Shown one piece after another: positions 8,701-57,931 of a stretch of DNA of 64,000 bases. The DNA comes from Odiellus spinosus. Taxonomy: Eukaryota > Arthropoda > Arachnida > Opiliones > Phalangiidae. Made by a program: the position numbers and the translations under genes. Under the pieces are notes generated by a model, which searched no databases, was not told the origin of the DNA, and was given only the letters and a program-made list of their open reading frames with translations. Where the stretch lies: positions 17,018,601-17,082,600 of the forward strand of contig OY987237.1 in the NCBI GenBank assembly GCA_963920705.1, read 5' to 3'. Within the stretch, counting starts at the first letter, position 1; every line of letters begins with the position of its first letter.

Positions 8701-11700
8701 TAGTGACTCGGCCACGGACATCCCACTAATTAGTTAGTTAACGCGAAATTAACTCGAAGCGTTTATCAGGGCTAATCCCCCGGCGATTCTCGGCTTGAGT
8801 TTCGGCTCATCCGCTCAACAGAGACGAGATATACCCGCGATTATCGTTTCTTTATTCCCTAAAAGTAAGCGACGCGTTAAGTTTTTTGTAAATAAAAACG
8901 GAACTCCTTTAAAATCAGAGTCTAATTCTAGAGAATTCAACGTTAATAGTTATTTTTGTCGCGATCAGTCGTTATCAAAAAGGGGGGTAACTTATCTCTG
9001 ACTGGAAACGCTCAATTTCTCATTACGAGGGAAATAGCTAGACGAAACCCGTTAGGGACTTGGAGGTTAAGCCGGCAGTTTACCGAAAGGGAGTGTCCTT
9101 AGCGCGCCGGAAATTGATACTTCTCCAGTTTCTCTTTAAAGGTAAACAATAAGAGCCCCGAAACATCCCAACCGAGGGCAATTTGGGCCCACTTCCATTT
9201 CGCGAATGGATTTGTACGTACATTTTGAATTTCGATAAGAATCTCCTTCGGATGATTTATTGAACGTAATAGGATTTAGTTTAATCGCTCGGAAAAGGCT
9301 TCAAATTGCTTACGAATAATATAAAATCTGTTTGGCGAGCGATACAACCTAGGCTTCGTCGAATCTAGTAGTAGTAATTAAGCTTCCTCTAACGGCCAAA
9401 CACTGCCGATTCTCTACGTTCAAATCGGCTTTTGTTTTACTTCCCATCCCGTATATCGTCAAATTTTACTGGCATCGCGGTAAAAATAGTTTGTGACATC
9501 GAAAGAGCTATGATCTATTTGAGCGGGCCTACGGGAAAATTTGTCTAAAAGGTCAAGGAAAAGTTAGGGAATTTGACAATTAGTTTAAATGCTAAGGGGA
9601 AAAGCCTGGGAATTTGGGAATTGGTTTAAAGGGTCGGGGAAAAGGTCAGGGAATTTGACAATTAGTTTAAATGCTAAGGGGAAAAGGCAGGGAATTTGGG
9701 AATTGGTTTAAAAGGTCAAGGAAAAGTCCGGGAATTTGAAAATTAGTTGTCTATATGTCGAAAGCGTGTTTTATAATCTGATCGCGAATGTACGTTTCAA
9801 ACAAACACTATAGTTAAGGTTTATTAGTGACCTTTATGTGCGGAGGTATTTCGCTTCTGACTCTGCATTGAAATGTGGCCGAGGAACCGTACTCCACCGT
9901 CGTGTTTAGCGGGTGATATCCGGTCACCTCGGGCTTCGTTCCGTCTGCAACGACAAATAAACGAAAATATAACTGACCAATTTTATCATATCGCGAGAAA
10001 GATTCCTTTAAAGGGACAATGAAACCTAAAAATAAACGTAATCAAATAGGCTTAGCTGGATTATAAGGGTATAATGACTAGCTCCCAATGACGCGTTACA
10101 TAAAACGGACTCACCAATGACCTCTAAGACGAAGCTGGTGCTGATAGAACCGTAGGGGTTCCGCAGAACGCAGGTGTAATTGCCACTGTCTGATCTCCGT
10201 AGTTTTTCCAATTGTATGAACCATTTCTTCCTAATAAGTCGCGTCGAAATTTTGGAGTTTCGAGTTTCGTTAGCCTCGTGGCTATTGGAAGGCGAATCGG
10301 GGACCCGAGCTGGGCCGGGGGCCGAAGATTTTAGGCGAACTCCGTTTTTTAGCCAAAATATTTTGGGAGCGGGATCGCCCGTGCCCGCGCATTTCAGACG
10401 GACCGAACCTCCGGTTGAGCTCTGAATGACGCTGCCGTTGAAGCTCGTTACGAACGTGAACCTAGGCGGACCTAAGGACCAAAAATAGTAAAACGAACAA
10501 TTATGACGTCACGCGTCTCTCGTTGGTAGAAAGTTCCGCCTCTCTAATTACTCGTTAAAGATTAAACGAAACTCACCTCCCGAATCCGCCACTTCGGCGA
10601 ATTCTTCGCCATCCGTTTGGTTGGAACTGTAGTCGTACGAATCGCTTTCGTCTAAAAAGAAATAAGTATCCCTTTCAATATAATACATTTTTGAGGATAG
10701 GGATCAATTTTAACACTACGCTTCTAGTTTTCGCCAGTCAATCTTAATCGATTTGAAACGTTTACGATCGATCCAATATTCGAATCGCCAGAAATCGTTT
10801 TAAGCGTCACGCCCGTTATATAAATCGATTTACGGTAGCTTCGTCTATCGGTTCAGTCGAAACCCCGAAACGGTTTCGAGAAATCGAATCGATTCGAGAA
10901 AAGAATCCAGGGAAATGTTTCGAAGCGGTTCAAATCGATTCCAATGCTTAGTACGAACGCGGCTATAATATCGGGGCTTTCTCGGACTAATAGAAAAAAA
11001 CGCGTACGCGTGACGTCTAAACGAGTAGTTAAAATGAATCCTTTCTTTCTTCGCGTACGGCGATGCCCTTGTAAATAACGAGAACGACTACATTTCCGAT
11101 AAAAAAGAAAAAAGGTTAAATAAACCTGCCCTAAATGACAAATAGAAAGAAGCCCGGCTAATGTCTCGCAGTTTCACCGAGACATTACGAGAGGAGAAAA
11201 GGAGAGTTAGATAAAAAAAAAAAAAAGAGACCAATAAGAGGTCTATATCGAGCCTACAGATCGGATATGTTTAAAGAATAGCCTTAGAAACCAACGTCCA
11301 AAAGAGAAGCCGGTGTACGCGCCGTTGCCAAGAGAATGAGAGCGAGAAAAAGAGCGGAAAAGGGAGAATGAAACCGAACAGAGAGTGATTTTTGATCGAT
11401 TCCTTATATAGATTAAATCCAATCCAGCTATGTCTATTTTGATGGCAAGTTTTCAATTGATTTTCTAGTGCTAATATTCGTCTGTAAATTTTGTTTATCG
11501 TTGTATTAAACTCGAAGGAATCGATAAAAAAAAACTCGGTCTTTGTTAAGTTTCACTCTCCCTTTAACGAACCGCGCCGCCACGAAAAATCGAGATAATC
11601 GATGGGGGTTGTATACTGACCGATGACCAAAAGGAAGACTCGTATTTGCACGCTTCCGAAGCCGTTGACTGCCCGGCACGTGTAGTGACCGGTGTCCGAA

Positions 11701-11984
11701 GACGTCACTCTTCTAATCCTCAGGGAACCGGACGGGGTCAGTCGATATTTGCCCACCTCGCTCAGGGGCCGGTCGCCCTCGAACCACTCTAAGAATAAGG
11801 TGGCCGGATCGGCCCGCACCGGACACGGCAAGACCGCGTCCTGGCCCGATGATACGACCTTGCGCAAGTCATTGGTCGGTAGACGAAGACGAGGCGGCCC
11901 GTAAGCGACGGCCAAGAGATGGTCCGCGAGCAACCAGGACCCGACGAAACGCAGCCAGACTATCCGGAACGAGATCTTTCGCAT
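2783..11984 (-). CDS. FGFRL1: FGFRL1-like receptor (fibroblast growth factor receptor-like 1), complete, 7 exons
   Basis: Coding exons in transcript order: 11984-11621, 10651-10577, 10471-10115, 9944-9832, 6185-5900, 3383-3078, 2982-2783. All splice phases agree, giving 566 residues (human FGFRL1 is 504). Seen: signal peptide about 1-28; Ig1 with C54, W67, C103 ending in a NGFGS motif; an acidic linker (122-146) on its own 75-bp exon; Ig2 with C174 and C247; Ig3 with C292, W304 and C379, containing KPDGS-LNKL and DSGKYIC-GAN-LGYS blocks; a membrane span at about 420-443 preceded by an IGIP motif; then a tail of about 120 residues with no kinase. This order and the Ig3 and juxtamembrane signatures are those of FGFRL1, a membrane FGF-binding decoy or adhesion receptor lacking a kinase. 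The tail ends with YDCF (557-560), a YxxPhi-type sorting motif, and lacks the histidine-rich stretch of vertebrate FGFRL1. The start is the first ATG before the signal peptide. Exon 4 uses a poor donor (GTCACT). Identity is strong; ligand binding is inferred. Confidence 0.92.
4500..4660 (-). repeat. Repeat family 5 fragment
   Basis: TATAAAAGTAAACGTGGC, TTAATACTATCAGCCAAAGT, then an inverted GAGGAAGCGACACTTTG. A deleted copy in an intron of the FGFRL1-like gene. Confidence 0.5.
6302..6830 (+). mobile_element. Repeat family 1 element with 13-bp terminal inverted repeats
   Basis: Left end ACAGGGTTCGTAC (6302-6314) and right end GTACGAACCCTGT (6818-6830) are exact inverted repeats. The interior is made of GTCAGGGAA motifs, including the 29-bp array below. 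No transposase. It lies in intron 4 of the FGFRL1-like gene. No convincing target duplication seen. Confidence 0.7.
6328..6550 (+). repeat. 29-bp tandem array
   Basis: About six consecutive units beginning GTCAGGGAATTTGGAAATTG, then degenerate copies. The three overlapping reading frames here only reflect a unit length that is not a multiple of three. Confidence 0.95.
7584..8010 (+). mobile_element. Repeat family 1 element with GGGTTGCCAC/GTGGCAACCC ends
   Basis: The left end GGGTTGCCACGG is matched by GTGGCAACCC at the right. The interior shares the GTCAGGGAA motifs and the CTGACGGCGTGTCAG core with the copies at 568 and 45116. The right end is amplified as a 39-bp tandem array. Confidence 0.7.
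7855..8010 (+). repeat. 39-bp tandem array, four units
   Basis: Four near-identical 39-bp units, each starting GAATTTGTATCTGAAATAAA and including GTGGCAACCC, so the right terminus of the element itself has been duplicated in tandem. Confidence 0.95.
9535..9750 (+). repeat. Repeat family 1 copy with a duplicated unit of roughly 100 bp
   Basis: Two successive copies containing GGGAATTTGACAATTAG, AAATGCTAAGGGGAAAAG and GGGAATTGGTTTAAA. In intron 4 of the FGFRL1-like gene. Confidence 0.75.
10740..10960 (+). repeat. Repeat family 2 (AATCGATT-rich) copy
   Basis: Contains TTAATCGATTTGAAACG, TAGCTTCGTCTATCGGTT, CGGTTTCGAGAAATCGAATC and ends near TAGTACGAACG, the order seen in the copies at 47890 and 53040. 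It lies in intron 1 of the FGFRL1-like gene. Confidence 0.7.
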
Positions 11985-14900
11985 ACCACAAACGCGACGA
12001 AAACTGAAAAGAAACGGAAAAGACCCCGGATCCTAATTTAACAATTGGTTAAATAGCGATTTGAAATATCTTTTCTTTCCGCGTACGCTGGCTTCTATAA
12101 AATGTACGCTCGGTGATTCCGAAAGCGTTATCTCGTAGTGTCCCTTTAATACTTAAAACTCCTTCGTCTCCGGGCGTTTTAATCGTTCAAAATCCATACC
12201 GTGGATTCTAATTATAGAAAATTGCAACAATATTATTCGTTCGCTACGGTACTCGTAACCCGACAACCATTCCAAGGAGAAAGATAGGGATTGTAATCTG
12301 GCGTGGCTATTTATCGATTGAAGATTTTGACTCGGATCTCTCGGTAGCTAGGAACCTCCGTGTAGCCCGGGGACGCCAGATATCCACTGCTTTTGCATTT
12401 TTCCCTCGACATTTTTGACGTTTCTTTGTTTTATATACTAAGAACGTCTCTTTCTTTCCTATTTTCAAAAGACACCCATTTGTTTTAGCCGCTTTTTCAC
12501 CTCAATTCTAGTTACTAGGATACCATAAGTAAATAAGTTTGTAAGACGACATACTGCGGGTGACGATGAAGGGAGTCAGACCACAGTTTCCCCCCCAAAT
12601 ATTCTGAGATTTGTAGGGAAAGGGGGCCAGGACAGGTATATTCTTTGTAGAGTAAGTCGGACTCGACATCGCGACGGCCGGGCGAGACGCGTTCCTTCGT
12701 TTTGCGAGAGAAAGAGAGAGAGAGGGGGGAGTCGATTTCCATCGATACATTTTCATCCCGGTAAACGTCTACTTAGTTCCAATCTCAGCCGCTAGAGAGG
12801 GCAATTTCCAATTAAGAAACTTTCAGAACCAGGTACCAATCGTATTACGCCCCGTGTTGTAAACTCGAAGAATGATTTTCCCGCGAATTTGGCGACTCTT
12901 AACAATTCGTAGGAAATGTTTCGTATATTAGCGAAAGCTCTCGATCAGCGAGTATATAAGTATATAGACGTAAATACGGAGCGAAGTCAAAATGGCTCGA
13001 TATTGAAAGAGCCTTCGCTACTTTCAGGCTTTTATCGTTAGCCGCTGGTGCTGAGAACGAAAAAAATATGATGGTTCCTCCTCCTCCTCCTCCTCCTCCC
13101 GCGCATTCCACCCCCTCGTTTCAACAGCCCTAGCTCGAACGTCGGAAAAAGGCCCCAGCAGCGGCCCAGCAAGGTGTGGAAAGGGAACATTGTTTCGGAA
13201 AGGCGGCGTCCCAGTTTATTCAATTACTTTCTTCGTTGTAGCGCGGGTCGGAGATGGGGGGGGGGGGGAAGACCACCGGCTCCGACGACTTAAGGAGAGT
13301 TTTCACCAATCTTACGTTTAACTTCGAAGTAGCGAATCAGAATCCCCCTCTGCCCCACCTCTAGAATTAAAAAAAGTAGGTAATCCCGGGACCAGTGACC
13401 AAAAGATTTTGACTCGGTATAGACTGGTCATATTCGAAGATCCAATTATTGTACGAGCGTATTTGGTAAATCTACGAAAGGTTGGTCGTTTTTGAAGGGC
13501 CGTGAAAACGCGCTTTAAACGCCTTTCCCGTAACCTTCTCGGAAGTTGCCTCCTGGCCCGAGTTCCTCCATCTCACCCGCGCGCAATCTCCTTTCGGTAT
13601 AAAAGCGATGACATTTGGCGTCATCGTCTTCCGTACTGTTTTAGGCGAGCGCCGCGTGAACAGTCGTCGAGTTCCCTTATAACCTTTCTCTCCCTTAACT
13701 TCCACTACGCTCCTAAAATAAGCCCCGAAAAAAGACGAGTCTTCGCGAATTTAACGGCTCCGAAACAAATTGGGAGGGGGGGGGGGGCGAAAAGAAAGCC
13801 AACCTGACGCTTTTTATATTAAAAAGGTGAGAGCCAAATATGACAGTTCTTGGAAGGAAAAAAATATAAAAAGAAAGAGAGACGGAAAATTGGTTTTAGA
13901 ATGAAGGCTTATATTAAGAAATATCAAAATACGAGCTTCTCCCTAATATCTAAAAGAGTTCCGTGTAAGAAACGGATAAAAAAAAACATATTTTTCTTTC
14001 ATTATAACGCTGAAATTCTAAAACCCTGGTGGGTGGCTTCGCGTTGCGCTCCGAAGCGAGTAGGTTAGAACACTTTTACAGGCGCGGTACACTCTCAACT
14101 AGCCTCTTTCGACTCGTTAATCGTATCTAGGTCTTAGTTTATCGAAGCGGCTCAACCACCTTTTAAGCCGGTTCCCTTCAGCGTTCGCGGATTGATTCAA
14201 AATATTAAACCTAGCGGGGGGGAAACGGGATAAAAAGTAGTCCCGATGAAGGCTAGAGGAAAAAAACTCTTAGAAGGAAATGAAAGTTTAAAGAAGCCAA
14301 GGCCTACCGCCGGGCGGTTTTAAATTTCATCACGTACGCGTTTGACCTTTCTTTAGGCGCGCCGTAAGAGAAATCTAAGCTCGACCCGCGGCTGAAATTC
14401 AAACCCGCCACTAGTGTTTCTCGATTTGATCTACGGCGCTCTGGGAACCAAAACGAGACACGTCGGATAAGTAAGAAATAAGCCCTTACAAAGGCGAGCG
14501 AGAAAAGTTTCCGAACCAAGTACGAGAAGAAACTCTCTTTCCCCCGAACTTCTCGCTCCACTTTTATAGATTGATCAAAGTCTCGTTCGGACTTGATCGC
14601 GAAATATTGGCTTAGCTTCCTTTTAAAAAAAATGACGCCAAATTAAAATATCCACCTCAAACTGAATAATTAATTCGATTTTGAATAGTATTTTTTAATT
14701 GGCCGATAAATACGTCTTCGCGCGACCAATTGTTGCTAGATCCGTACGCTAGATACGAACGAGACTTAAGTTTGCTTCGAGGGAAAAACTTGAGAGACGC
14801 CCGATCGCTAGATACACTTTGCTTTTAAGCTTCTCCGAGAGACGCGAAGCTGGCCATCGTGGTACGCGAAGCTCTCGACATTTCTTGTCGGTGACGAGGG

Positions 14901-37014: not shown

Positions 37015-37115
37015 CTCTTCCCTTACCGCCTAGCTTTGACTGTACTATTTCTTAGTGGTAACGTCGTCCGCTAAGCTAGAAACGAAAGGCGGCTTTAAAG
37101 GGGCAAGTAATCAAA
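37015..37115 (+). repeat. Repeat family 3 copy
   Basis: CCTAGCTTTGACTGTAC, GTCGTCCGCTAAGCTAGAAA and GGCTTTAAAGGGGC in the family order. Confidence 0.65.
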
Positions 37116-40719: not shown

Positions 40720-40869
40720 TGGGCCGAACAAAATGTAGCTCTCGGGATCTTGGCATTAAGTCGCGCTCGTTCCGACATGTCCGTTGTTGATCGAATGGTA
40801 ACGGCGCTGTGGAAAAGGAGGAAAAAGATTAGATTGAAAGCAGAGCTTTCTTTCATTAGCATCTCGCTA
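40720..40869 (+). other. Possible 5' exon or leader of the SEA/MYND gene
   Basis: A strong donor (CTA then GTGAGTACG) ends a possible exon at 40869, 0.8 kb upstream of the first supported exon. An ATG at 40777 opens 31 codons to this donor in phase 0, but joining it to 41685 gives the wrong frame and reaches a stop in the following exon. It could be an untranslated leader with a short upstream ORF, or nothing. Confidence 0.2.
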
Positions 40870-41124
40870 GTGAGTACGTCTTTCTCCGAAGACTTTTGAA
40901 AATCTTCGCGTTCTAGGATCTAGGATCGCGCGGTCGTTACTCTCCGTTAGTTCTAGTTGTAGTTATCGCCGAATCGATCGCGAAACGAGCTACGATTCTT
41001 TCCTTCGAGATTAAATAGCGACCTTAATGACAAGGAGATCGCGTTCGTGACTCGGCGACCAATAAGAAAAGGCGAGATCTCCACGAAACTTCCAATAACT
41101 CTCCATTGGTCTCAGATCCTTTAA

Positions 41125-41300
41125 AGGGACAATCTGTGATTTTTAGATCCCCTTTAAAGTCGCCTTCTTTTCTAGCTTAGCGGACGACGCTGTACATAGC
41201 GAATTGTACAGTCAAAGCTACGCTACGTACATAAGGGAAGATAATTTTAAATAAATGGGCAAATTTAGAGCAGATAGGGCCTTTAAGGCGAAGAAATTTG
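41125..41300 (-). repeat. Repeat family 3 copy
   Basis: CCTTTAAAGGGACA, CCCCTTTAAAGTCGCCTTCT, CTAGCTTAGCGGACGACG and ATTGTACAGTCAAAGC. Reverse orientation relative to the copy at 49255; just upstream of the SEA/MYND gene. Confidence 0.7.
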
Positions 41301-41684: not shown

Positions 41685-44600
41685 GCTATTTACTTGGCAA
41701 TATGGAACGACGAAGCGACCTGGTTTCGTGGCGATTTCTTGACCAGCAATTCGTCCCCGCGTCAACGAACTATCCTAACACTCGACTCGAAACCGAGCTC
41801 GTCCGTCACGATGGACGACAAATTTATTCACCATTCGAAAGTAAGTCGATAGAACATTGACGGCGTTTTCAAATGGATCTTTTAGGAGAAGAATTATAGG
41901 GTACGCGTATTCGGAGGCGAAATTTCGCGTAGAATATAACACCATATATTTTAGAGACGTCGCGTTTTTAAAAATAATTAATTTGGGAGCGTGTGAATGG
42001 CCCTTTAAAAATGAAAGGCGGATTTATAGAAGTTGCGGGCTCGCGTACAAAACCAAGGTAGAACGCGTTCTTTGATTTCTAAATTCCATATTTCTAAAGG
42101 TTGATTTTGTTTGTTTCGTTCGATCGATGCGTGGACTTTTCCGTTTCTCGTTTTCTCTTTCGAGTGGAACGCGTTTTCAAAACATTTTTGAATAATTTAC
42201 GTTTTAATTCCCCGAATTCGAGTTAAGGTTTCTTCTAAACTAAAGCTACGTTCGCGCTAGGAACTTTTCGAGCGAATAATTATATTCTTCGTCTTTACTG
42301 TTGACCTTAAAAATTTCCATTTTGACCTTTCCAAAATGGTTGATAACGCGAAGTTTCTAGCGTGAACTCCGCTTAATGTTGATCCCAATTACAACCGCCG
42401 AAATAAGTTGGGCGGAAGAGAGGGAGCTTCGGTTAGCCGAACTATATTTGCCCCAATTTCGAGCGTCTATCAAATAATAAAAGATAAAAAAACATCAATA
42501 TAGGCGTCGTTTAACGCGATTTTTCTACAACAACAACAACAACAACAACAAATATCGCAACGAGAAAGCTCTGAGGGAAATTCAGTGAAGGGGTGGGGGT
42601 GGGGGATCTATTTCAGATAGACAATTGGCGCCTCGCTCTTTCGTAAAAATAAATGAAATAATAAGATCTAAATTATTGGAATGTAACTAATACGTTTCTC
42701 CTTGATGGAGTCTCGACCCTTAGCTAGAAAAGAAGCCGACTTTAAAGTCGATTTGTAAACTTTTCCAGGGAAAGCGAGAGGCTTCGACGCGGTGTCTCGA
42801 ATCCGAATTTCCAGTCGCGTATACTTCCAAAAAGTCCGCGCAATTTTTAATCGACGGCGACTTTGACGATATTCGGAGCGATCTTTTAAAGTTTCGCGTC
42901 TTTTTCATCAATTTCCTGAGAAAGAAATACCGAAAGGTCATTTGGTTGAACGTCACGGCCATTCCGGGTAATCGAAGAATCAAACTTCAAGCCATTCTTT
43001 CTCCCTTTAAACTCTAGTTAATCTAAACTGGTTTCTTTCTCATTTCCGTTAATCAATCAGGAAGCATCGTGGTCACGGCCGAAATGACGGGAAGCTCCGA
43101 GTGGTTGCGGGATACGACGAGTCAAATGGCCCGGGATGTCCGCGACAACTTGACGCTGACGTATCTTCCCGGGAAACCGTGGCGCGTCAAGAGAGCGGCC
43201 GAGACCGCTGCCAAGGTACGTTCAAACCTCTTTATGACGTCATCCCCCCTCCACTCCTCAATTTTTACCAAAAATAAATAATCAAAAGTACGCGACAACT
43301 AAGTCCGGGTTTTGTCGCGAACAAAATGAGTCATTTTGGCGCAATTATTATTAGAATCTAGTAGTTTTAACCGGACTAAAGCGGTTAGTTAGTTTTAACC
43401 GGCCGCCTTTGGTTGTAACTATAGAGATTTATTTTGGGGGGGAAATGAATCTTAATTGAAAACTCGTCCTCACCGTGATCCTCATTGGTTTGTTTCTCCT
43501 TATAGGACGAGACGAAGGAGAAGAAAGATGGTCAGGGGAATCTTCCTTTGGCTTGGATCGCCGCCATAGTCATTAACGGAGTTCTAGTGTTTCTATTCAT
43601 TCTTTTCGTGGTCTATTGTTATTGCCGAAGCAAAAAAAGAACGCGTAAGTAGCGAACTTTCAATTTGCAGTAGGAAAAAAAAAAACCAAATCCGTCCATC
43701 AAATCGAACCTAGTTTAGTTTTCAGTGAAAACTCTTATTTGGTAATTAAGGTTAAGTTCTTACGATATTTGGTGTTGATTTGTAAGGGGAGGGCGAGAAA
43801 CGTCTCAGGCTTACGGCATTAACTATTATTCTTAATGTATTAAAATTTGGGGTGAATCGTTTCATTATCCCTTTAAACGTATAACGTGAAATACAGTTGG
43901 AACGCGGCTTTAACTGGTAGCGCGCTACAACTCGTGTTCGGAGCCGTTCGACCTATCATCCTAATCTATTTCTCTTATTCGATAGCATTTACATATTTTT
44001 CATTGGTCAAAACATTTATCGCGCGCGCCAACTATATGGATTTATCGGAGACTGGTTGCCAACCCCTTTAACATTAAATTAGCCCCCCTCATTTCGGTCA
44101 ATATAAGTTTTCTCATTCGTTGGAGGGAAGGAGGGAGGGAAGGGTGCCTCGAAGGAACTATCGAAGGATCGTACCTTCTCCATTTGCCATTATCCCTAAT
44201 TTCTCGCTTCCTATACTCGGTACAATATTATAACCGCAAAATTAGTGGTGAGCGATTCCTTCTATCAGGCCGCGTTCGTACTAGGCAGCTTGGAATCGAT
44301 TTAAACCCTTTCAAAATGTTTCGCGAGAGTCGCGTGAACTAAGAACCGTCTTTTCTCTCAAATCGATACGATTCGGTTTCAACAATCGATACACGAAGCT
44401 ACCATAAATCGATTTATGCGCGACTATTTCTGGCGATTCGAATATCGGTTTGATTTTAACGTTTGAAATCGATTTCGAAAGGCTAGTGTGATCGTAGCTT
44501 TAAAGGGCTGTTCCGTTTTAACGCCGATTTAATCGCTCGGCACTCTTTGGAAATGGAACGCGAATTGCGTGCGAGGCGCAAAGGCTATTGATTTCGTAAT

Positions 44601-47600
44601 TGTAGAGCTCGTAGCCCCCCCCCCTCCTCTTCCCCCTCACCCCCTCGCGGCTGTGTTTTTCTCCAAACAGTTTATTCCGGTTGCCTTGGTAACCGTTTAC
44701 TCGTACACTCTACCTCGCAACCCCCCCTTAAGGTATAATGCGCCAAGAAACCTATCGAAAATACTTAAGAGCTTGATTTCGATAATGGCCGAGTAAGAAG
44801 CTAGTCCGACTTTCGGGGCTGTTTTCTCCAATAGCCGGGCCAACGACGATCGCCAAAGAGTTCTCCCCTAATTTTTCGGTTGAACAAACTTTTTTGGGGG
44901 TATTTATGGTTTCCCTAGTAATTAGTCCCTGATTGTCGCGCGGGGCGTGTTATGCCGAACATCGGGTTCCAACGGGTCGCCAAACTATACACCATGTGCG
45001 GTCGCGTCTTGAAGAAACTCGGAGACTACGTTTTCGACTACGAAGATCCAACAGGTAACCTAACCACCCACTGTATAACCCGCTTCGACGCGCTCCTCAA
45101 CGCCCGGAAACCTCGTGGTTGCCACGGGTCGGGGAAAACGGGGAAAAGTCGGGGAATTTGAAAATGAACCGAGAAAGTCGGGGAATTTAAAGATCTTTTA
45201 AAAATTCGGGGAATTTAAAGATCTTCGAGAAGCCAGGAAATCGCGATCATTATCCGTGGAAAAGATTCTCAGCTGACGGCGTGTCAGGTGTATAGATTAG
45301 AACAAAGATACGCCCGCGACAAAGTTTGGCGAACGCGATTATATAAAACAATAAAAGCTTAAAAATTGGGTAGTATTAGACGAAACGGTCAGGGAAAATC
45401 GGTGGAAAAGGTCTGGGAATTTGAATCTGAAAAAACTGAGCCAACCCAACGGAACAGTAAACAAAATTTACTAACTAATATTAACGCTAGAAATAAATAT
45501 AAAACTTAACCCGAAAAATAGGCTTAGCTGGATTGACACGGAGATCACCCGAAAATCCACCAATGGCATTGATCGATGGCTCTTATACGGGGGAATGGCC
45601 GCATCTCCATGATCAATATCGTTGCTCGCTTCTCCTTATACCTGGAGTTAAAGGCAATCTCCACGAATCCAGATAAGCCTGGATTTATTTCAAGATTAAA
45701 ATATTTATTGTTAAGTTAGGTTGCATTCTCCCTTTACACTTTTCTCTCAAAGCGGCAAACTTGTAGCTTCATCATAGTCATTAAGTTCAATTTCATTTTA
45801 AAATCGCTCGTATTTAATCAGATTTACCCGAAATTAACGTAACCTTCTCAGTTCAATAAAAACTCTTTATTTCGATACACTCCTCATCAAAATTACGATG
45901 ATTAGCTTCCTTTAAATTCTTAATTCAACTGTCTAAATTTTAATTTTATCTTATTTGATATATTAATTACTTTCAATGATTCACTAATTACTTTCAATGA
46001 TTCACTAATTACTTTCAATGATTCACTAATTACTTTCAATGATTCACTAATTACTTTCAATGATTCACTAATTACTTTCAATGATTCACTAATTAATTTC
46101 AATGATTCACTAATTACTTTCAATGATTCACTAATTACTTTCAATGATTCACTAATTACTTTCAATGATTCACTAATTACTTTCAATGATTCACTAATTA
46201 CTTTCAATGATTCATAATTACTTTCTATGTTTCACTAATTACTTTTAATGATTAATTGTATATGTATTAATTTATTATTTTTCCGCGCTGTCTGGTGATC
46301 ACCAGACAGCTGTCTGGTGATCACCACTTCGCCCGCAATTTTTGATTCGCGAAATAATTATTATTATTATAAACCCGAAGGTAAATGTGATTAAACCTTC
46401 GGCTCATCTAAAGAAGGTCTTTAACTAACGGCTTAAAATCAATACACTCTTGTTGAAAGGCGCGAATAAAGAAACGAGCGTTAATGACTTTATTAAAACG
46501 CGCGAATCTTTTTTCCCCGCCTCCTTCCCCCTTTGTAGTTTTAAAGAGAGAATAAAGCCTGACAAGCTGAGTGCTTTTGTTTTCCGTCGCTTCCTCTTAG
46601 ACTTAATTCGCTGCTAAAAAAGAAATAACGAACGAGTACTAAGCTATGGAAATCAATATTTAACTGACCCGGAAAGTACGAGCTCTCGTCCAATTAGATT
46701 TCAGCCATCTATCGTTTAAAGAGTGTCAGCAATCGCGCGCGTGTAGTTTAAAGGGAAACTTCGGAGCTAAAAATGGCTTTTTATATAAATTCGGGCCAAT
46801 CGTATTATTGACGCCTTTAGCGGCTCTTATAATAAATAATAATATAATATAAATAATATACGAAGGTATTAAAGGGATTATTCGCGATTTTTAAGCCCCT
46901 TTTAAAGTCGTCTTCTTTTCTAACTTCGCGGACGACGTGGCTAGTAAGAAAATGTACTTTCCAAAGCTAGGCTGTGTACACGCGCGAAGAACGAGTTAAA
47001 GGGGCAAATTTCAGAGTCAAACGCCGCGGCCTATTCTCTTAATGTTAGGACATTACGAGCGCTGTTGAATAATATGAAATAATACGATTGTGGCCTGAAT
47101 TTTTATTTCTATTCACATTTTAGCAAACTCTAGGAAATTAATTTAAACTCCAAAAACGTGTCTAAAAATTGAAAATTGTTGAATACGTTTCTTGGCACGA
47201 TGATTCCGAAAATGATTTCAAAAGCTGATTCATTTTTTTTTAGCTCCAAGTTTGCCTTTAACGTATAAATTATTGGTCAACAGCGTCGCGTTTGACGAGA
47301 CTCGTACCATAAATCAAGGCGAACGAAGAAACGAAAACGCGGAGATATAAGCGTATTACGTTACTCGGTTGTATAACACGAATGTTTAGCGGTCTTCGCT
47401 TTTAAACTCGCGTATAGATTAGTTTGAGGAACTGGCGCGCGTACTTGGCTTCGTGACGGCCAGGATTGATTGTATCGTACGCTTCCTAATTACCTTCTCG
47501 CCCTGGACTCGCGAAGCGTCCTTTTTAACTCGGACAACCCTACCCGTTCTTCGATATAGTCAGTCGAGCGCGCCGCGACCGAAGATTCCGAGAGATTGAA

Positions 47601-50600
47601 CCTCGTTGTTAATTAATTTCGGCTATTATCGGATTACGCGACTGATTATCGGATTATTTCGCTTAGAGCGCTTTAGCTCGTAAACGAAGGAATTGACCTT
47701 CGCTCATGAATTCGTTTTGGCAAAGAGCTAAGAGTATCTTATCGCCCAAGAATACTTCTAATCCGGAGAATGAATGCCATTTAAACGGTACGAAAGGAAA
47801 AACTTGTACAATAATTGGAGCTATTTAGACCTAAGGGTACGCGACCAAAAATATCAGCTTACCCTCTCGATCCCAATCCCAACCTCCCTCTAAAGATACG
47901 GTCACGCTAGCGTTTCGTAATCGATTTGAAACTAACATTCGAAACACCGGGAATCGATTTAAACGTCACTCTTATAGTAGCTTCGTCTATCTGTTGTTGA
48001 AATCGAATCGGTACGAAACTGGTTCCCGAAGCGATTTCGAGAAAAAGACGATTTCCCATCCACTCGACTCTAGCGAAAAGTTTTGAAACGGTTTAAATCG
48101 ATTCCAAGCTGTGTCGTACGAACGCGGCTTCTATGATTGTCAGCGCGCGAGAACCCCGTTTCCAATACATCCGCCCTCGAATGATCGCTTTGCCCCGAAC
48201 ATAAAAGCGCTAAGGGTGAAACGCTTTTACAGGCATTAACCCGCTCTGTAGTTGAATTTGATTATTAGGGAAGGGAATAGCGTTAATGAGAATGTTAATG
48301 GGGAACTTGTCCCGTTTCGTGTCTCGCTTAGAGCAACCGGAACGAGAAGACCCCTATGGTCGTCATTACGAGAGTTCGAACGAGAGGAGTTACAACGAAA
48401 AGGCGGCGAGCAACCCTCACCAGCGGGGCCGAATGCCCGGCACCGAAAGAGCCGCTCTCATCTCGACCGGAGCTCAAAGAGGAGCCGAACCGCGTTCCGT
48501 CTTCACCGTCGAAGACGAACGACGCCGGCTGCGAGACGAAGAAGACTTGGAAGACTACGAACCCGACGGTTACTCGACGCCCGTCAACCAACACCGTCTC
48601 GATTCCGACGGCCGCCCGCTCTCTAGACCCATCTCCTCGCCTCCTTACTACTTCGACGACGAACGAGACGTGAGTTCTTAACGACCTTACCGACGCCAGT
48701 TGACCCTAATTATACTCGAATGGTCGTAGCGTTTGCCGGCCACGGTTCGAACGAAAGGAACCGTGACGGATGAACTGGACGACGATCTCGAAGACGAGTA
48801 CCAAGAAAGGTCCCGTAATTACGGCGGTGGTGGCTACGAAGACCACTTGGACGACCCGCGCTCTCCCGGGGCCAATCTACGACCCAGTCCCGTTCCGGCC
48901 ACTCCCATTCACGGTTTCAAATCTCCTAGTCCAACGATGGTTATACGACAAACCTCTCCCCCTCCCCCTCCACCGCCGCCTCCTCCTCTATCTCCCGTTA
49001 AAACGCCGGAAGCCCGAATCGAGAGGTCCAAAACCCCCGAAACCAGATCCGAGACCAGGAATCTCTCCAGAGAAGGGTAAGAACTTTTTTCTATCCATTG
49101 GGAATTCGACGCAATGGGAATATACCAAATGGACCCCATTTCCCAGAAAAACTCTTCATTAAATCCCCCTTACAGTAAAAAGTTAGTCTCAAGAGGTCTT
49201 TGGGAAGTCTTTCATTATGTCAAGAAATCTTCGCGAAGTCTTAAAGACTCGCTCGATACTTTTGTAGCTTTGACTGTACAATTTATTACGTACAACTTCG
49301 TCCGCTAGGCTAGAAAAGAAGGCGACTTTAAAGGGGCTTTAGAAAACGCGGATAGTCCCTTTAAAGGCTGGTAAATTGTAGAGTGGATAGAGTTTTAACG
49401 CGCGCGAAAAAGCTTTTATCATAAGTGTAAGTAGTAGAGGGGTGGTCGCGTTTCCTCCCCAGTTTCTTAAAAGTATGACGTGTTTGGAAACGCGTTTCGC
49501 GAATTAGCTCTCCGTGTCGATTTCTTATTCGTTCTAATGTTTAAAACTGAAAACCTTTAAGACGATTGAGACGATGGAATAGAAGAGGTGGGGGGAGGGT
49601 GCGGTTTAGCGATATATTTTGCATAAATGTCTTCTTATTATTCTCGCGCTTCTGGATTAACATTTACGCGTATGTATATGGAAGACAGTTGGGAAAAGTT
49701 TGAATGACCCACTTTCGCAAAATTCAAATCTTTACGAGTTTCGGGAGAAGTTAGGAACGAAATATTCTTTTTTGACGCGTACGTGATCAATATGATTAGA
49801 AGGCAATTTTATTAAAGGCTCACGAACGGAAAAATATGGAAAAAAAATGATTTTCCGCTAAAAGTGATAGATCGGGGAAAAAACCCGATTTAAAACATTT
49901 CGGGAGGGGCCAATTCAAATCGACTTTTTTGTGGTTAATTTTAATAGAAAGCAAACGGTACAAATGTTTATAGATTCGCTTTCAGGCTTAAATTTAATTA
50001 CGTCGACGAAGAAACCCCCATTTCCTATCAGTGCGCTAAATTTCTCCCATTTTTAACCGCGGGACATTAAAGAAGATGAGCGCGACATCGTACCCATTTC
50101 TCTCTCGTTTGAAAACGATTCGTCTAATTTGACGCGAATTTCAAATCCTCTATACGAGAAAACGCTCGATTTTTCGCGAGTTAAATTTGCTACGGCGTTT
50201 TTCCGAGACCCGTTTCAACGGCGGCTATTGTTTAGGGAAGTAATTTCTTTAGGCGCGCGTGTCCCTTTAAGAGAGCCGTATATTTATAGCGCGACGCTAT
50301 TGGTTAGAAGTTGGTTTTTTTTCGGAGAACAAGGGGGGCTCATTGTCATTCTAAAAAGGATCTTTACGTTGTAGAGTTCGATTTTTGATTCGGTTTTTCT
50401 TAATCAATTCTCGATCCGGGTCCCGCCTCTTTCTAGTAACTCGATCTAAACCGGGGTTTTTATTCTTTCGAGATAATCTTCTATCCGTATCCGATCGTCA
50501 TTGTCCTTCGGTGGCTCGCTCTTAGAGGAGACTGGGTCGCTAGAACTTCCCAGAAGTTTCCGATTCTAGCTTTCGAACCCTTTCATTTATTTATTATTAG

Positions 50601-53600
50601 GTCGAGATAAATAGATTTTTGGAGAGCTCGTTCTAAAATGGGGGATGGCGGCGAAGAGTAGGTTGGGTCAAATTATATATCGAACAAGCGCTAATGCCGC
50701 GTCGCGTTTGTTTTGTTTTTCAGTTTCTATTATCGCGACCCCATGGACATGCCCGCTGTCAACGCTATCGTCCCCGAACCCGTACCCGCGCCTATTACGA
50801 ACCAAGAAGGTACGTAACTAGATCTCTTATCGAATTAACATTCTACAAACCCCTAGAATACCCTTGAGCGGAAATATAGAGCGTTTTGAACAAATATCTG
50901 GGAAATCTTGCTCCTAAATCGGGCAAAGATTGGGGAAACTCTTAAAAAATAGTTGACTTCGAAGTTGAGCGTTATCAGCTTCGGAAATTACATTATTCCT
51001 CCCTCTTAGATCTCTTTCAAAAACTTTACTCGTTGTTTTTGGGGGGGGGGGGCGCTCCTTTTAGACAAGCGGGCTTATAAACACGCTCAGTCAGAAGCAA
51101 ATAGGTAGAAGTGACGACTAAGCCCGCGGTCCCTCTTGAACTAGTAGAAACTTCGTCCCTCGTAGCGAATAAACGAGGAGTTAGCGCCGAGAAATATTGA
51201 TTTTTGTCGTCCAATTTGTATTTTTCAGCTTGGCAAAATCCTCAAAAGACTGACGCCGTCAATGTTGGTGAGTAATTACTTTTCAACTTCTGTTCGTTCG
51301 TATACGTCAGTCCTATTACGCTTAAGAGTCGAGTAATACTAGACCCAACTTTACTTCGTAATAAAGTTTATTCTTAATTAGCCAGAGTGTAAACGTATTA
51401 ACAAATACCTACTTAGAGTTGAGAATCGGTAATTGGGCCAGTAATTTGCCATTAGCTACGCTAAATAATTATTATTTAAATATGTTTAGATTAAAAGTGA
51501 ACAAATTGAGATAAAAAAGGTTAAGTTTAACGCGTTTTAAATCGTCTACTCGGTCAACTTTTCGGTATGATTAGAATTTGAGTGGGATTAGCCGAAAGAA
51601 GCGTAATTCACCGCCTATCTACCGGAAACTATTTTTATAGTGCATATCAGACATTGACAACTTCCGGAAACAAAAAAAAAAACATTATTTTGATGTTTTT
51701 TGCTAGTTTTAGGTCAGGTCAGGTCAGGTTAGGTCAGGTTAGGTCAGGTCAGGTTAGGTTAGGTCAGGTTAGGTTAGGTTAGATCTGACCTGACCTGACC
51801 TAACCTGACCTGACCTGACCTGACCTGACCTAACCTAACCTAACCTGACCTGACCTGACCTGACCTGACCTGACCTGACCTGACCTAAAACTAGAAAAAA
51901 ACATCAAAATAAAATTAATGTTTTTTTGTTTCCGGAAGTTGTCAATGTCTGATATGCACTATAAAAATAGTTTCCGGTAAATAGGCGGTGAATTACGCTT
52001 CTTTCGGCTAATCCCACTCAAACTATAATCATACCGCCTTTTCAATAGTTATTCTTGTACGTTAAGGACGTCTTAAAGGTCTTATATGCTCTGAAACTTA
52101 CCCCTTTAAAATGCTCTTCCCTTACGCACGCGGCCCAGCTTTGACCGTACAATTTGTTTCGTACAACGTCATCCGCAAAGTCAGAAAAGAAGGCGACTTT
52201 AAAGGGGATTTGAAATTCACAGATAGTCTCTTTAATTTTATTTTTCACGTCATATCAGAAATGGTTCCTATTATAAAATAACCTTGGAACCAACCAAAAA
52301 AGTCGTTAAAAAGCGCGGGTTTCTATCGAAGATGTTGGTTTTTTTCAAGGTTGTTTTAAAGTATAGGATTGTCTATACATTTGCCAACCTTGAAACCCTG
52401 AAAAAGAGCCGTTGAATAGAACCCGTTTCTTTGGGCCGCGAGGTGAAGAGGAAGGTTGTAGATAGGATGACGGGGAGTCTTATTCTCCTTAGGCGAAACC
52501 GGGTCGCGACCAAATATGGTGTCTTTTGGGCAACTCCCGTCCGCAACGTCAGTGTATATAGCCTCAAATACGGGTTGGTGTGTTGCTTGTTATAGCGCCG
52601 GAAGAGAAAGCGGCTCAGATGTTCGACATCTACCTTCTTAAAGAAGGATCCGGAGTTAAAAGTAAAAAGGGCCAAATAGCTTTGAATCTGGAAGCCCCGA
52701 TGACGTTGACGCATTTGAGGTCGGCGCTGAACGCTTCGAGCAATCCCAAGATCAAATCATTCGCGAAAAAGAAGTATACCTTCATGACGGACGAGCTGCG
52801 TTCGGTGGACCTCCCCGAAGGCGCCCTCCTAGTCAAAAACTTATATCCATCGAACGCCATTTACGTGCGACAAATCGACGATGGTAAGCCACCCCGTACA
52901 ATTATTTCGCTAAATTCATTTGTCGCGAAATTTCCGCGACCTAAAACCAGTTCTTTGTGACAGCGACAAAATTTAATTTTAGTTTTGGTCCATTGCAATT
53001 CGCTTTAAAACCGAATCAAATTGATTTAGTTTAACCGATTAAGCTAAGGTCACGCTACCATTTCTTAATCGATTTGAAAAGGTCAAATCAAATCCGTATT
53101 TGAATCGTCAGGAATCGATTTAAAGTAGCTTCGTCTATCGATACGAAAGTAGTTCCCGAAGCGGTTTCGAGAAATCGAATCAAATCGATTTGAGATAAGA
53201 CGGTTTTCCTTTTGATTTAAAGGCCTAGTACGAACGAAGCTTTAGAGTAACTTAATTCTTTGGCGCGGTTTTTGTTTTTCAGAATGGCAAGCGCCGAAGA
53301 AAAAAGAGAAACTGGCCGGTATGTGTTCTCGATATTAGCTAGACAGGTGGTGCGAGATCTTAGTTAACCTCCCATTTCGCCGCAGACCCGATTGAGCCGC
53401 GACCAATTCCCAAAACGTACTCGGTCAATCTGTATCGAAGCGATCGGGGCGTCAAGGAATTCGTTGGAGAAATTTCTTTACCCGACGGAGGACCATTAAC
53501 TTTAACCCATTTGAGAAGTACTCTTTGCAAAGCGCCATTGAGTGTGGAAGGAATGGCGTGGAGGGACTACGTGTTCTTGTCCGAAAACCTGGAAGAAATC

Positions 53601-54782
53601 TTGGCCCCGGAAGGAGCCCTCTTGGTCGATCTACTTTATCCCAATCAAGAAATCGTGTTTAGATTAATAGACGACGAAACTGGTAAAGCCCTTCGCAATT
53701 ATTATATTTCATTTGTATTTTCTTGCCCTCAAAAACTAAATTCGAGTTCGTTTCGCCCTAATTATTTCCCCACGACTTATTTTAAGGCGAATAAGTAATT
53801 TCCGCCTCCAAATTTAATCTTAAAGCCACGATAATTAGTCGTAATCGAAACTCTTCTATTGTAGATAAAAAAGCAAACTCCAAGAAAAGCAAAACGCAAG
53901 CGGGTAAGCTCTCGTATTTTCTCGAACACCAGTGACCGTTTTGACCCTTTAAAGGTCTTATCTGCTCTAGAATTTGCGCGACTTGAAAATAATATTACAT
54001 TACGCGAGCGCGGCCTAGCTTTGACCGTACAATTTTTAGCTACGGCCAAGGAAAGAAGCCGACTTTAAAGGGGAATTAATAAACGCGGATTGCCCCTTTA
54101 TGATAAGCTTTCCCAGGGGCGATTTAAAATTGTTAATTAGACAGAGTTACCTCACATTTCTAATTTACATCCAAATTATCGTTTCTAGCCGCGGCTTTTA
54201 CAATTTTAAAACGTTTTAAAGTTTTCTAATGACGTTTTTGTTCAACAGCCAATGGACCCGGAGCCCCAAAAGCGCCGGCGGAAACGAAACGAAAGGACTT
54301 TGTCTACAGTAAATAATTTTGTTTTCTATTAAAAGAGGAATCTCTTAGCGCCCAATTGATCTCTCTACGATTTAATCGCGGGAAATTGAACAAAAATTCC
54401 CGAAGTTAAATAAATAATTTTTCTTTTTCGTTTTAAGTTGGACCAATGGGAATGTGCACCGCGGCCGAGTGCGAGAAGGCCGCGAAGATCAAATGTTTGG
54501 ACTGCGGTCAAGTCGGGTACTGCACCACGAGACACATGAGGGACGATCAATTCACGCACAAGCGCTCCTGTTACAGTAAGTCGCTTATTCGTTTCAACTC
54601 TATTATCCCCCAACCAGGGTGATTGTTAATAACCTAACCTTTAACTACATCTCGGACCCAACCCGCACGCACGCACGCGCGCACTCCTAGGAACCGAGCA
54701 CTCTTATCTCTTTTTCCCTCGTTACATTTTAACACGCGGTTCTTTTACGATTTGTTCGTTAGAGCCGCAGTGGAAACATTAA
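41685..54782 (+). CDS. Single-pass membrane protein: SEA domain, TM, proline-rich region, two beta-rich repeats, MYND-like zinc finger
   Basis: Reconstructed exons: 41685-41840, 42815-42967, 43061-43215, 43506-43644, 44926-45054, 48269-48669, 48730-49076, 50724-50809, 51229-51267, 52596-52883, 53283-53318, 53386-53682, 53865-53903, 54249-54308, 54438-54575, 54763-54782. Every junction keeps frame; 12 of 15 introns are phase 1. From the first in-frame ATG (41702) it gives 821 residues. Seen: a SEA-like ectodomain (about 45-125) with the GSIVV autoproteolysis-type motif at 98-102, NVT and NLT sequons, a furin-type RVKR at 139-142, a membrane span at about 166-189, an acidic RS-rich cytoplasmic stretch, ten prolines at 449-458, two related domains (about 535-622 and 645-733) and a Cys/His finger (776-814). 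The 5' end is uncertain: no signal-peptide exon was found, and exon 1 opens with two bases of a split codon, so an upstream exon probably exists. The exon at 44926-45054 is less sure. Two adjacent genes cannot be fully excluded. Function unknown; a cleaved cell-surface protein with a cytoplasmic scaffold is inferred. Confidence 0.75.
42529..42552 (+). repeat. CAA trinucleotide repeat
   Basis: Eight or so CAA units about 260 bases before the second exon of the SEA/MYND gene. Confidence 0.9.
44275..44490 (-). repeat. Repeat family 2 copy
   Basis: GAATCGATTTAAACCC, TTTCGCGAGAGTCGCGTGAA, AACAATCGATACACGAAGCT and TTTGAAATCGATTTCG in the same order as the copies at 33590 and 41395. Intronic in the SEA/MYND gene. 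Confidence 0.7.
45116..45442 (+). repeat. Repeat family 1 copy
   Basis: GGTTGCCACGGGTCGGGG start, CTGACGGCGTGTCAG core and a degenerate GCCAACCC end. It begins about 60 bases after the exon at 44926-45054 of the SEA/MYND gene. Confidence 0.7.
45961..46255. repeat. 21-bp minisatellite, about 14 units
   Basis: Units of ATTACTTTCAATGATTCACTA repeat almost exactly with a few single-base variants. The minus strand has an open frame only because 21 is a multiple of three. In an intron of the SEA/MYND gene. Confidence 0.95.
46288..46326. repeat. 22-bp perfect palindrome followed by a partial second copy
   Basis: CTGTCTGGTGATCACCAGAC plus AG at 46288-46309 is its own reverse complement, and CTGTCTGGTGATCACCA follows directly. 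Confidence 0.9.
46740..46845 (+). repeat. Repeat family 6 fragment
   Basis: AAAGGGAAACTTCGGAGC, AAATTCGGGCCAATCGTATT and GACGCCTTT; matches the 27430 orientation. Confidence 0.55.
46865..47010 (-). repeat. Repeat family 3 copy
   Basis: CCCCTTTTAAAGTCGTCTTC, CTAACTTCGCGGACGACG and ATGTACTTTCCAAAGCTAG. Intronic in the SEA/MYND gene, next to family 6 copies. Confidence 0.65.
47035..47165 (-). repeat. Repeat family 6 copy
   Basis: TTAATGTTAGGACATTACGA, GAAATAATACGATTGTGGCC, TTTTAGCAAACTCTAGG, AACTCCAAAAACGTGTC. With 46740-46845 it brackets a family 3 copy in inverted orientation. Confidence 0.65.
47890..48130 (+). repeat. Repeat family 2 copy
   Basis: GGTCACGCTAGCGTTTC, TAATCGATTTGAAAC, TAGCTTCGTCTATC, GAAACGGTTTAAATCGATTC, then GTCGTACGAACGCGGC. 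In the intron preceding the exon at 48269. Confidence 0.7.
49255..49370 (+). repeat. Repeat family 3 copy
   Basis: TAGCTTTGACTGTACAATTT, CGTCCGCTAGGCTAGAAAAG, GGCGACTTTAAAGGGGC, GCGGATAGTCCCTTTAAAGG. Intronic, 180 bases after the proline-run exon. Confidence 0.75.
51563..52036. mobile_element. 474-bp foldback element with AGGTC/AGGTT pentamer core
   Basis: Long nearly full-length inverted repeat: CGGTATGATTAGAATTTGAG at the left, with its complement ending CATACCG at the right. The two arms (about 150 bp) also share CTATTTACCGGAAACT-type and CTTCCGGAAACAAAAA segments. The centre near 51783 is a block of about 70 bases of AGGTC/AGGTT units followed by about 105 bases of their complement. Intronic in the SEA/MYND gene. 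Confidence 0.9.
52060..52240 (+). repeat. Repeat family 3 copy
   Basis: CCCTTTAAAATGCTC, CAGCTTTGACCGTACAATTT, AAGGCGACTTTAAAGGGG and AGATAGTCTCTTTAA. It abuts the AGGTC foldback element ending at 52036. Confidence 0.75.
52265..52415. repeat. Repeat family 4 copy
   Basis: ATTATAAAATAACCTTGGAA, GTCGTTAAAAAGCGCGGGTT, GATGTTGG, TTTCAAGGTTG, GCCAACCTTGAAA, GCCGTTGAATAGAACCCG follow the order of the copy at 58490. Confidence 0.65.
53040..53245 (+). repeat. Repeat family 2 copy
   Basis: AAGCTAAGGTCACGCTACC at the left and TAGTACGAACGAAGCTTTAG at the right, imperfect inverted ends suggesting a small non-autonomous DNA element. Intronic in the SEA/MYND gene, about 40 bases before a 36-bp exon. Confidence 0.7.
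53940..54110 (+). repeat. Repeat family 3 copy
   Basis: CCCTTTAAAGGTCTTATCTG, GCCTAGCTTTGACCGTAC, GCCGACTTTAAAGGGG and GCGGATTGCCCCTTTA. In the intron between the 39-bp and 60-bp exons of the SEA/MYND gene. Confidence 0.75.
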
Positions 54783-56258: not shown

Positions 56259-56297
56259 GGGCAATTTAATTTACAATTTTAATTGGTACGATATTAA

Positions 56298-57774
56298 TTA
56301 ATCATCTCCGAGTATTTTCCATAACTTGACTAAACTATCATCCCCCGCCGAAGCCAAGAGCCCGGATATTTTAGGGTTCCAAGCGATACCATTTACGTCT
56401 CGCGAATGAGCTTCTTGTACGGAACAAGCCAATTTGTAGTTGGGGGCGTCCCGTTCGCTAGTTTCCTCATCTTCTCTGAAGATTCTAACGCAATCATCTC
56501 CGCAAGCGGAAGCGATTAAATTCGTTAGATGACACCTTCGCGCGTAAAGGAGAAGAAAGATATTAAAAAACTATTCCCCTATCTTAGAATAAGAGATTCG
56601 AAATTACCAGGAAACGTCGTAAATAGTTCTTAGATGATATCCTGATAAGGTACAAACGCATTTCCATCTCGGTTCCCCGTCAATCGGGATACCTGAATTT
56701 AGATTATAAAAATTTAGCCTACTACTAATAATCCAAAGACTCTCCCTGTACGCATTTTGTCTTTTTCAGATCTCTACGATGATTGGACGAAGTCAAAAGA
56801 AAGGGGGAGTCTTTCGTACAAAACCCTCTTATAAACTTGCAGGAATTTTCTCGGTTATCGTATTCCTGCCAGATTTTTAAAGTCTTGTCATCGCTGCACG
56901 AGACTAAGCGATCGCCGCTTTTATTAAAAGCTAAGGACCAGACGGTTGACTCGTGAGAAGTTAAAGTAGCGCAACAAGACCAATCGTCTCCGTCATCTTT
57001 ATACGCTTTTATCGAGTTGTCGTAGCTGGCCGAAAACAATAACTGAAAATAAGAGAGAGTCAATTTGACGGGGAATTCTTTAATAATTGGAGATATTTTA
57101 ACTCACGTTTTTAACTGGATGCCAAACAACTTTCTTGACATCTTGGGAATGGGCGTGAAGAACGCTGGCGCATTCGTACTCCTCATTATCATCAACTTTC
57201 AACCAAAAACCAAAACATTAGCCCAAAGTTTCCAATTGAAAATAAGCCAGCCTAATTAAAATTACGGGGGAAATAGTGGCAATAGGGAGGGGGTCTTTTA
57301 TTATATAGTCTTTTAAAATGACTTACCTTCCCAAATCCAAACGCTTTTATCTCTACTAGAGGTGGCGAGTAATTGTCCAGAAGGGGACCAAGCCGCGCTT
57401 TTTACTTCATTTTCGTGTCCCTCCAAAGTCGCGTTACATTCAAATTCCCCACTTTTTTTGTCCCAAATGCAAGTAGCCCCGTCGAAGCCCGTACTCGCTA
57501 AGTAATTGCCGCAAGGTGACCAAGAAACTGATCGAACCGTTCTTTGATGTCCGTCAGTTAGAATAGTCTTACAAACCCAAGAACCTTAAAGAATCGAAAT
57601 AATTTTACATTTAGCCGTTGTTTTAGGTAGGATTATTGATTCACCTTCTTCGGTCCACAATCTAATAGTTTTGTCACCCCCGCAACTAGCTAAAACAGTT
57701 CCGGACGGGTCCCACGCGACGCACCATACTCTATCCTTGTGTCCTTTCAAAATTTCTATACTTTCTAGTTTCAT
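56298..57774 (-). CDS. CIAO1: CIAO1, WD40 component of the cytosolic iron-sulfur assembly targeting complex
   Basis: Exons in transcript order: 57774-57645, 57584-57327, 57195-57107, 57042-56820, 56692-56608, 56535-56298. Phases agree at every junction and give 340 residues (human CIAO1 339). CIAO1 is the seven-bladed WD40 propeller that, with MMS19 and FAM96B/CIAO2B, delivers Fe-S clusters to cytosolic and nuclear apoproteins. Seen: repeat signatures along the whole length, including [12 protein letters not shown] (blade 1), [20 protein letters not shown] (blade 2), [15 protein letters not shown] (blade 3), [11 protein letters not shown] (blade 4), [10 protein letters not shown] and [11 protein letters not shown] (blade 5), [15 protein letters not shown] (blade 6) and a final WNPK-SGLLAS-GDD-LVKLWK. 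These match the CIAO1 family blade by blade. The exon 4/5 junction was chosen as donor at 56819 and acceptor at 56693 because only this keeps the frame and the usual spacing. Transcribed divergently from the FAM177 gene. Confidence 0.97.
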
Positions 57775-57931
57775 TATTGCGGAGCTTTCAATTAAAATTA
57801 ATATAAAAGGGTAAAGATAGCGAAATATTTGTACGCAAATTGCGCTCGTAATTGTAAACAATGATTGACGAATAGTAGCAGACTATAAAGCAGGCAGACT
57901 AGCCTAAGATTCTATACCATTAAGACTAATC

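Follow-up and report, generated by a model that had tools for sequence, protein, structure and literature searches.

A probable membrane protein with a SEA-like ectodomain and a MYND-type zinc finger on its cytoplasmic tail in Odiellus spinosus

Introduction

Dystroglycan has a cleaved SEA-like juxtamembrane region, one membrane span, and a proline-rich tail with a PPxY motif. DEAF-1, BS69/ZMYND11, and ETO, which carry MYND fingers, are nuclear or cytosolic proteins, and we know of no ubiquitin-like or MYND domain in the tail of MUC1, MUC16, Notch, or GPR126. According to an excerpt of PMC6954182, SEA domains undergo autoproteolysis at a GSVVV or GSIVA motif located in the loop that connects strands 2 and 3, and GPR126 has a furin consensus of (R/K)-X-K-R. 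In the MYND finger of DEAF-1, an extract of PMC3555993 describes M512, E514, T516, Q529, and W533 (DEAF-1 numbering) as conserved positions that are important in ETO for corepressor-peptide binding, and the contacts of BS69 with PXLXP include Q546 and W550 (PMC4742278, in excerpt).

Here, we analyzed a window of 64,000 nucleotides from contig OY987237.1 of Odiellus spinosus. A sequence-only reading of this DNA had proposed a gene joining a SEA ectodomain to a cytoplasmic MYND-like finger. Our analysis indicates that the locus is best read as encoding a membrane protein whose cytoplasmic tail carries a MYND-type finger. We put the probability that span and tail form a single gene at about 0.75; the complete architecture, with the SEA likeness counted in, appears somewhat better than an even bet.

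Results

Genomic context

The window holds two further genes on the - strand. One encodes an Ig-domain surface protein (2786–11987), with Ig (I-set) domains at 11619–11987 and 10107–10415, a weaker Ig match at 5895–6170, and a span at 3067–3339. The other, at 56262–57777, adjoins the 3′ end of the gene under study and encodes a CIAO1-like WD40 protein (WD40, 152.6 bits; PDB CIAO1, E 8.8e-12). CpG is over-represented in the window (observed/expected 1.51) and TpG/CpA is depleted (0.61); such a CpG excess is unusual in animal genomes. Rfam gave no match at gathering scores across the whole window.

Several repeats lie in and around the introns. A dispersed repeat of ~100–130 bp is found in direct and inverted orientation within introns and upstream (41118–41251, 49264–49367, and 52105–52235), with inverted pairs 82–87% complementary, and similar stretches were seen by eye near 37040, 46900, 54030, and 56060. 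The intron before the first ubiquitin-like domain contains a palindrome (51563–52036) whose 129-nt arms, 93% complementary, surround a TTAGG/CTGAC-type array, and the intron between the membrane-span exon and the tail contains a 21-bp tandem repeat (45964–46253; 13.9 copies, 96% matches).

Gene model and coding potential

When the gene was rebuilt from the sequence, the 16 exons at 41685–54782 (+ strand) formed a single open frame of 821 residues ending in a TAA stop codon at 54780–54782, and all 15 introns were GT–AG, in agreement with the earlier proposal of 15 introns in one frame. Beyond these 16 exons, a candidate start exon at 40777–40869 had been missed. An AATAAA lies downstream of the gene at 55226. 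Coding-likeness was scored using codons trained on tail and Ig-gene exons, with 3000 stop-free stretches, taken as non-coding, as background. The features are as follows, with the evidence for each in brackets.

40777–40869, + strand: proposed first exon with ATG, basic n-region, and start of the hydrophobic signal sequence (would join 41685 in phase 0)
41685–41840, + strand: exon, remainder of the putative signal sequence and ectodomain start (frame; p 0.0037)
42769–42967, + strand: exon, SEA-like part a, with the helix homologous to P0001, a metagenomic protein described below (frame; p 0.024; P0001 alignment)
43061–43215, + strand: exon, SEA-like part b, with the G/SIVVT motif, whose G codon is interrupted by the intron, and with RVKR at 43183–43194 (0/3000 background stretches as coding-like)
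43506–43644, + strand: exon, membrane span (~43548–43625) and basic stop-transfer RSKKRT (frame; P0001 match; codon score alone p 0.11, not significant)
44926–45054, + strand: optional exon, either a cassette, as in the earlier model, or an alternative first exon from ATG 44952 (poor acceptor; coding-like)
48332–48669, + strand: exon, cytoplasmic tail, charged, with PPYY motif (frame; coding scan; next-exon ranking)
48730–49076, + strand: exon, tail with proline run at ~48957–48995 (frame; coding scan)
50724–50809, + strand: exon, tail (frame; coding scan)
51229–51267, + strand: exon, short W-containing linker (frame)
52596–52883, + strand: exon, predicted ubiquitin-like domain 1 (frame; duplication)
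53283–53318, + strand: exon, short W-containing linker (frame)
53386–53682, + strand: exon, predicted ubiquitin-like domain 2 (duplication; predicted fold)
53865–53903, + strand: exon, basic linker (frame)
54249–54308, + strand: exon, basic linker (frame)
54438–54575, + strand: exon, variant MYND finger (Pfam score; DEAF-1 alignment)
54763–54782, + strand: last exon, KPQWKH and stop TAA (frame)

The weak codon score of the membrane-span exon may reflect the scoring of a hydrophobic segment with mostly soluble training sequence. A free coding scan, whose training set took in most of the exons that it later ranked, placed part b, the segment from 44952, the exons at 48332, 48730, and 50724, both ubiquitin-like exons, and the MYND exon among its best 70 stretches; part a, the membrane-span exon, and the short linker exons were absent from these 70. 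All exons between 51229 and 54575 have phase 1 at both ends, a pattern as in genes built by exon duplication. Likeness between the two W-linker exons (51229 and 53283) is only suggestive: its shuffle p is 0.006, but 20 of the 797 windows in this protein score at least as well.

The exon at 40777–40869 is the likely first exon and would begin the signal sequence, since its product joined to that of 41685 reads as basic residues followed by LSFISISL-AIYLAIW. It was the sole hydrophobic candidate among the five phase-0 ATG-to-donor stretches with a donor score of at least 8 between 20.0 and 41.6 kb; when the donor threshold was lowered (15 and 23 candidates), a stretch at 22.3 kb outscored it, and its codon score is background-like (p 0.33). 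No Pfam family (E to 0.1) matched the three + frames of 28.0–41.7 kb, with stops read as X, and the ectodomain therefore appears short.

Proline run and paired domains of the tail

The proline run proposed earlier consists of ten consecutive prolines, and 11 of the 12 S/T-P sites of the model fall in the tail. The two beta-rich domains, previously described as related, are indeed duplicates, with 39% identity and a BLAST E of 9e-21 in a single comparison. Both are predicted to be ubiquitin-like (beta-grasp). As every Z in the fold comparison of the ubiquitin-like model was below 8, we claim no single fold family, and the Foldseek list for this model also contains DIX, FERM, and PI3K chains. 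Neither domain matched any Pfam family, and a sequence search of the PDB with domain 2 returned nothing credible.

A variant MYND finger

The finger scored 26.2 bits against PF01753 (curated cut-off 22.7; 25.6 bits with the last exon added) and 27.6 bits against zf-Mss51 (PF13824; cut-off 27), so the Pfam profile confirms the MYND-like assignment. A PDB search by sequence gave nine matches, two of which were weak matches to DEAF-1 (E 0.047 and 0.18), and the AF2 model of the MYND exon alone had a pLDDT of 57. Aligned with DEAF-1, whose C4-C2HC ligands are given in the extract of PMC3555993, six of the eight zinc ligands are identical; C528 is replaced by H, and C504 by A with a Cys two residues upstream. 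The second zinc site is complete, with equivalents of C515, C518, H536, and C540.

At the five corepressor-binding positions, the finger has K, K, L, M, and Q, and thus none of the five residues. The BS69 contacts Q546 and W550 correspond in a motif alignment, restricted to these two contacts, to the Q529 and W533 positions, which here are M and Q, with F beside the Q. The protein's own proline run had been suggested as a partner of the finger. The tail does contain one PxLxP (PPLSP at residue 445), but the known pocket is missing, and the absence of all five binding residues makes binding of the run in the known mode unlikely.

Ectodomain and membrane span

One protein among 5.8 billion, P0001 (171 aa, from a 1787-base contig of a JGI metagenome), matched at E 3.8e-12. 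The membrane block from LP to KK shares 28 of 32 residues with P0001, or 28 of 34 if the two following positions are counted. With this block removed, the ectodomain still aligned to P0001 better than all 3000 shuffles, through the helix DLLKFRVFFINFLRKKYRKVIWLN; the first 40 residues of P0001 were equalled by 1 of 3000 shuffles when compared with the ectodomain, and residues 37–108 alone by 2651 of 3000. Because P0001 carries ectodomain helix and span in a single metagenomic ORF, read through without a splice, both are parts of the same protein. The unity of ectodomain and span in the earlier claim of one membrane protein with a MYND tail is thereby supported, and the proposed join from span to tail comes from splice sites and frame. 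The span (43548–43625) is more conserved between the two proteins than the ectodomain, of which a single stretch aligns, and the identity of the membrane block suggests that the span may be more than an anchor.

The proposed SEA ectodomain kept its motif and juxtamembrane position but gained no profile match. GSIVVT lies at model residue 150, and the span begins at about residue 216. PF01390 did not match the predicted protein in Pfam at E up to 1 or up to 10, where HMMER filters drop most weak matches, and a six-frame search of the animal's own genome with PF01390 gave eight hits, none in the window, where the domain, sought exon by exon, is split by an intron. A PDB sequence search with the ectodomain returned nothing credible. 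'SEA' is thus used here only for a likeness in motif and position. RVKR lies some 40 residues C-terminal to the putative cleavage loop, and three of the five N-glycosylation sequons of the model are in the ectodomain.

Alternative readings of the locus

An ectodomain of another fold, with GSIVVT as a coincidence, would be compatible with one gene and is a serious possibility, a little short of even. The missing SEA profile match and the weak matches of other Pfam families, all below cut-off, favor it, as does P0001, which has no GSxVV at the aligned place. Conversely, GS[IV]VV occurs only once in the 127,996 six-frame residues of the window, and that occurrence falls within exon 43061–43215, ~65 residues before the span. 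The connection between span and tail raises a separate question. In a next-exon test, codon training was restricted to the Ig gene, ubiquitin-like, and MYND exons, and the tested sites were excluded from splice-score training. The exon at 48332 topped the 161 phase-1 exons reachable from the membrane-span exon with a score of 46.7, and the best phase-1 alternative outside 48262–49076 scored 10.4. Frame agreement is modest evidence for the join, since entry into the 48332 stretch scored nearly as well in phase 0 as in phase 1 (42.2 and 47.4, respectively); phase 2 gave 16.0. When each was left out of training, the GTAAGT donor of the membrane-span exon (43645) ranked 18th among 2988 GTs; among 3456 AGs, the acceptor preceding 48332 ranked 96th. 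From these splice signals and the frame, we infer that the span is joined to the tail.

Read past its donor, the membrane-span exon meets a stop after two codons, and a short-tailed protein could therefore end there. A rival reading places two neighboring genes at the locus: one for a small membrane protein that stops after RSKKRTRK at ~43653 or continues into a short unseen exon, and one for a cytosolic protein with two ubiquitin-like domains and the MYND finger starting at ATG 44952 (or 48286). The exon at 44926–45054 fits such a start, being coding-like (p 0.0017), more so from ATG 44952 (p 0.0007; score 10.5, against 5.9 from 44928), and having an acceptor that does not stand out from random AGs (rank 1644 of 3456). 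Nor does the beginning of the tail match anything in P0001. We nevertheless consider two genes unlikely, as the strong GTAAGT donor would be superfluous in the upstream gene, and 43.65–44.95 kb contains no AATAAA and only two ATTAAA. Moreover, the acceptor before 48332, with coding from the first codon, suits entry from the membrane-span exon, and the extension at 48286–48333 from the upstream ATG is not coding-like (p 0.26). The P0001 peptide further reads S-K-L after CRSKK, just past the conserved block, which is what read-through of a GTAAGT donor could give. The exon at 44926–45054, proposed earlier as internal, is thus retained as coding-like, but its internal status is doubtful. Given that its donor is also in phase 1, it could serve either as a cassette exon or as the start of a cytosolic form. 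One gene could accordingly have two promoters, giving a membrane form (43644 to 48332) and a cytosolic form (ATG 44952, with 45054 joined to 48332) that share the tail of two ubiquitin-like domains and the finger. This arrangement, compatible with the best explanation, is possible but doubtful. The donors at 43644 and 45054 both match the acceptor before 48332 in phase, the segment 44952–45053 is coding-like, and the acceptor before 44926 is poor; however, phase agreement has a one-in-three chance, and the accepted acceptors at 43061, 48730, and 53386 rank 1082, 1616, and 1411, showing that acceptor ranking is noisy. A single gene joining span and tail remains our preferred reading.

Searches for relatives

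The sequence-only reading had called for a search for the same architecture elsewhere, and no relative of the tail was found: among the 5.8 billion proteins, neither the whole protein nor the ubiquitin-like–MYND part had a homologue at E ≤ 10, with 7993 candidates sharing most words and 3128 candidates scored, respectively. In the animal's own genome (443 Mb, 286 contigs), ubiquitin-like domain 2 gave two matches, both at this locus, and the SEA-like and span part gave four, three in the window and one on C8 (E 1.2). The C8 match was rejected as a paralogue because it is a repeat-like stretch with stops. No relative of the membrane block or of the ubiquitin-like pair was confirmed in IMG/VR and GTDB contigs, collections that hold few or no animal sequences.

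'SEA domain' and 'MYND' never occurred together in the literature searched, nor did MYND with transmembrane receptor, cytoplasmic tail, and ectodomain, and broader searches, judged on titles and the starts of abstracts of the papers listed, gave no relevant match. The earlier statement that no family is known with a MYND finger on a SEA-type tail holds to this extent, but ubiquitin-like domain, MYND finger, and span are already joined in USP19, and 'SEA' is here a likeness.

Discussion

We propose that one + strand gene, from ~40777 or further upstream to 54782, encodes an 809-residue membrane protein with, in order, a signal sequence, a short SEA-like juxtamembrane ectodomain, a conserved single span, and a cytoplasmic tail of ~560 residues. 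The tail would comprise a proline-rich stretch, likely disordered, together with two ubiquitin-like domains and the variant MYND finger. The ectodomain may be cut at G/SIVVT, or at RVKR by a furin-type protease, and could be removed by force or ligand, while the tail may act as a scaffold whose proline motifs, ubiquitin-like domains, and zinc finger gather cytoplasmic partners at the membrane. The signal sequence, cleavage, topology, and scaffold role in this scheme are drawn from sequence features.

Should span and tail prove to be joined, this would be a cleavable surface protein whose tail bears tandem ubiquitin-like domains and a MYND-type finger. Ectodomain loss would then be linked to modules with known roles in transcription and in ubiquitin pathways, and the locus would be a concrete place to look for such coupling. 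More speculatively, and quite improbably, a cleavable receptor might be paired with a cytosolic scaffold made from an internal promoter, so that shedding and promoter choice set the location of the scaffold (membrane versus cytosol or nucleus), with the conserved span as the functional core.

The protein resembles Dystroglycan in its juxtamembrane SEA-like region, single span, and proline-rich tail with PPYY; P0001 weakly matches DAG1 (PF05454), at 13.0 bits, below the Pfam cut-off of 23.3, and the window protein gave no match to this family in Pfam at E up to 10. With the membrane mucins MUC1 and MUC16, Notch, and GPR126, it shares a domain near the membrane with G/SIVV, like the GSVVV or GSIVA of the excerpted PMC6954182, followed by a span. 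It differs from them in giving no SEA profile match, and from SEA-type cleaved proteins in that its RVKR lies outside the putative cleavage loop. In common with DEAF-1, BS69/ZMYND11, and ETO, it has a finger above the PF01753 cut-off and a complete second zinc site, whereas its first zinc site is altered and the corepressor-binding residues are replaced. USP19, as described in an extract of PMC13349892, likewise has a ubiquitin-like domain together with a MYND finger, and some of its isoforms also have a membrane span. However, USP19 is a deubiquitinase with a C-terminal ER span, whereas here the span precedes the tail domains and no USP catalytic domain matched in the five pieces scanned by Pfam, which left out the short linker exons after 52883. 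Compared with these systems, the novelty here would be the tail, carried by a surface protein that is otherwise SEA-like.
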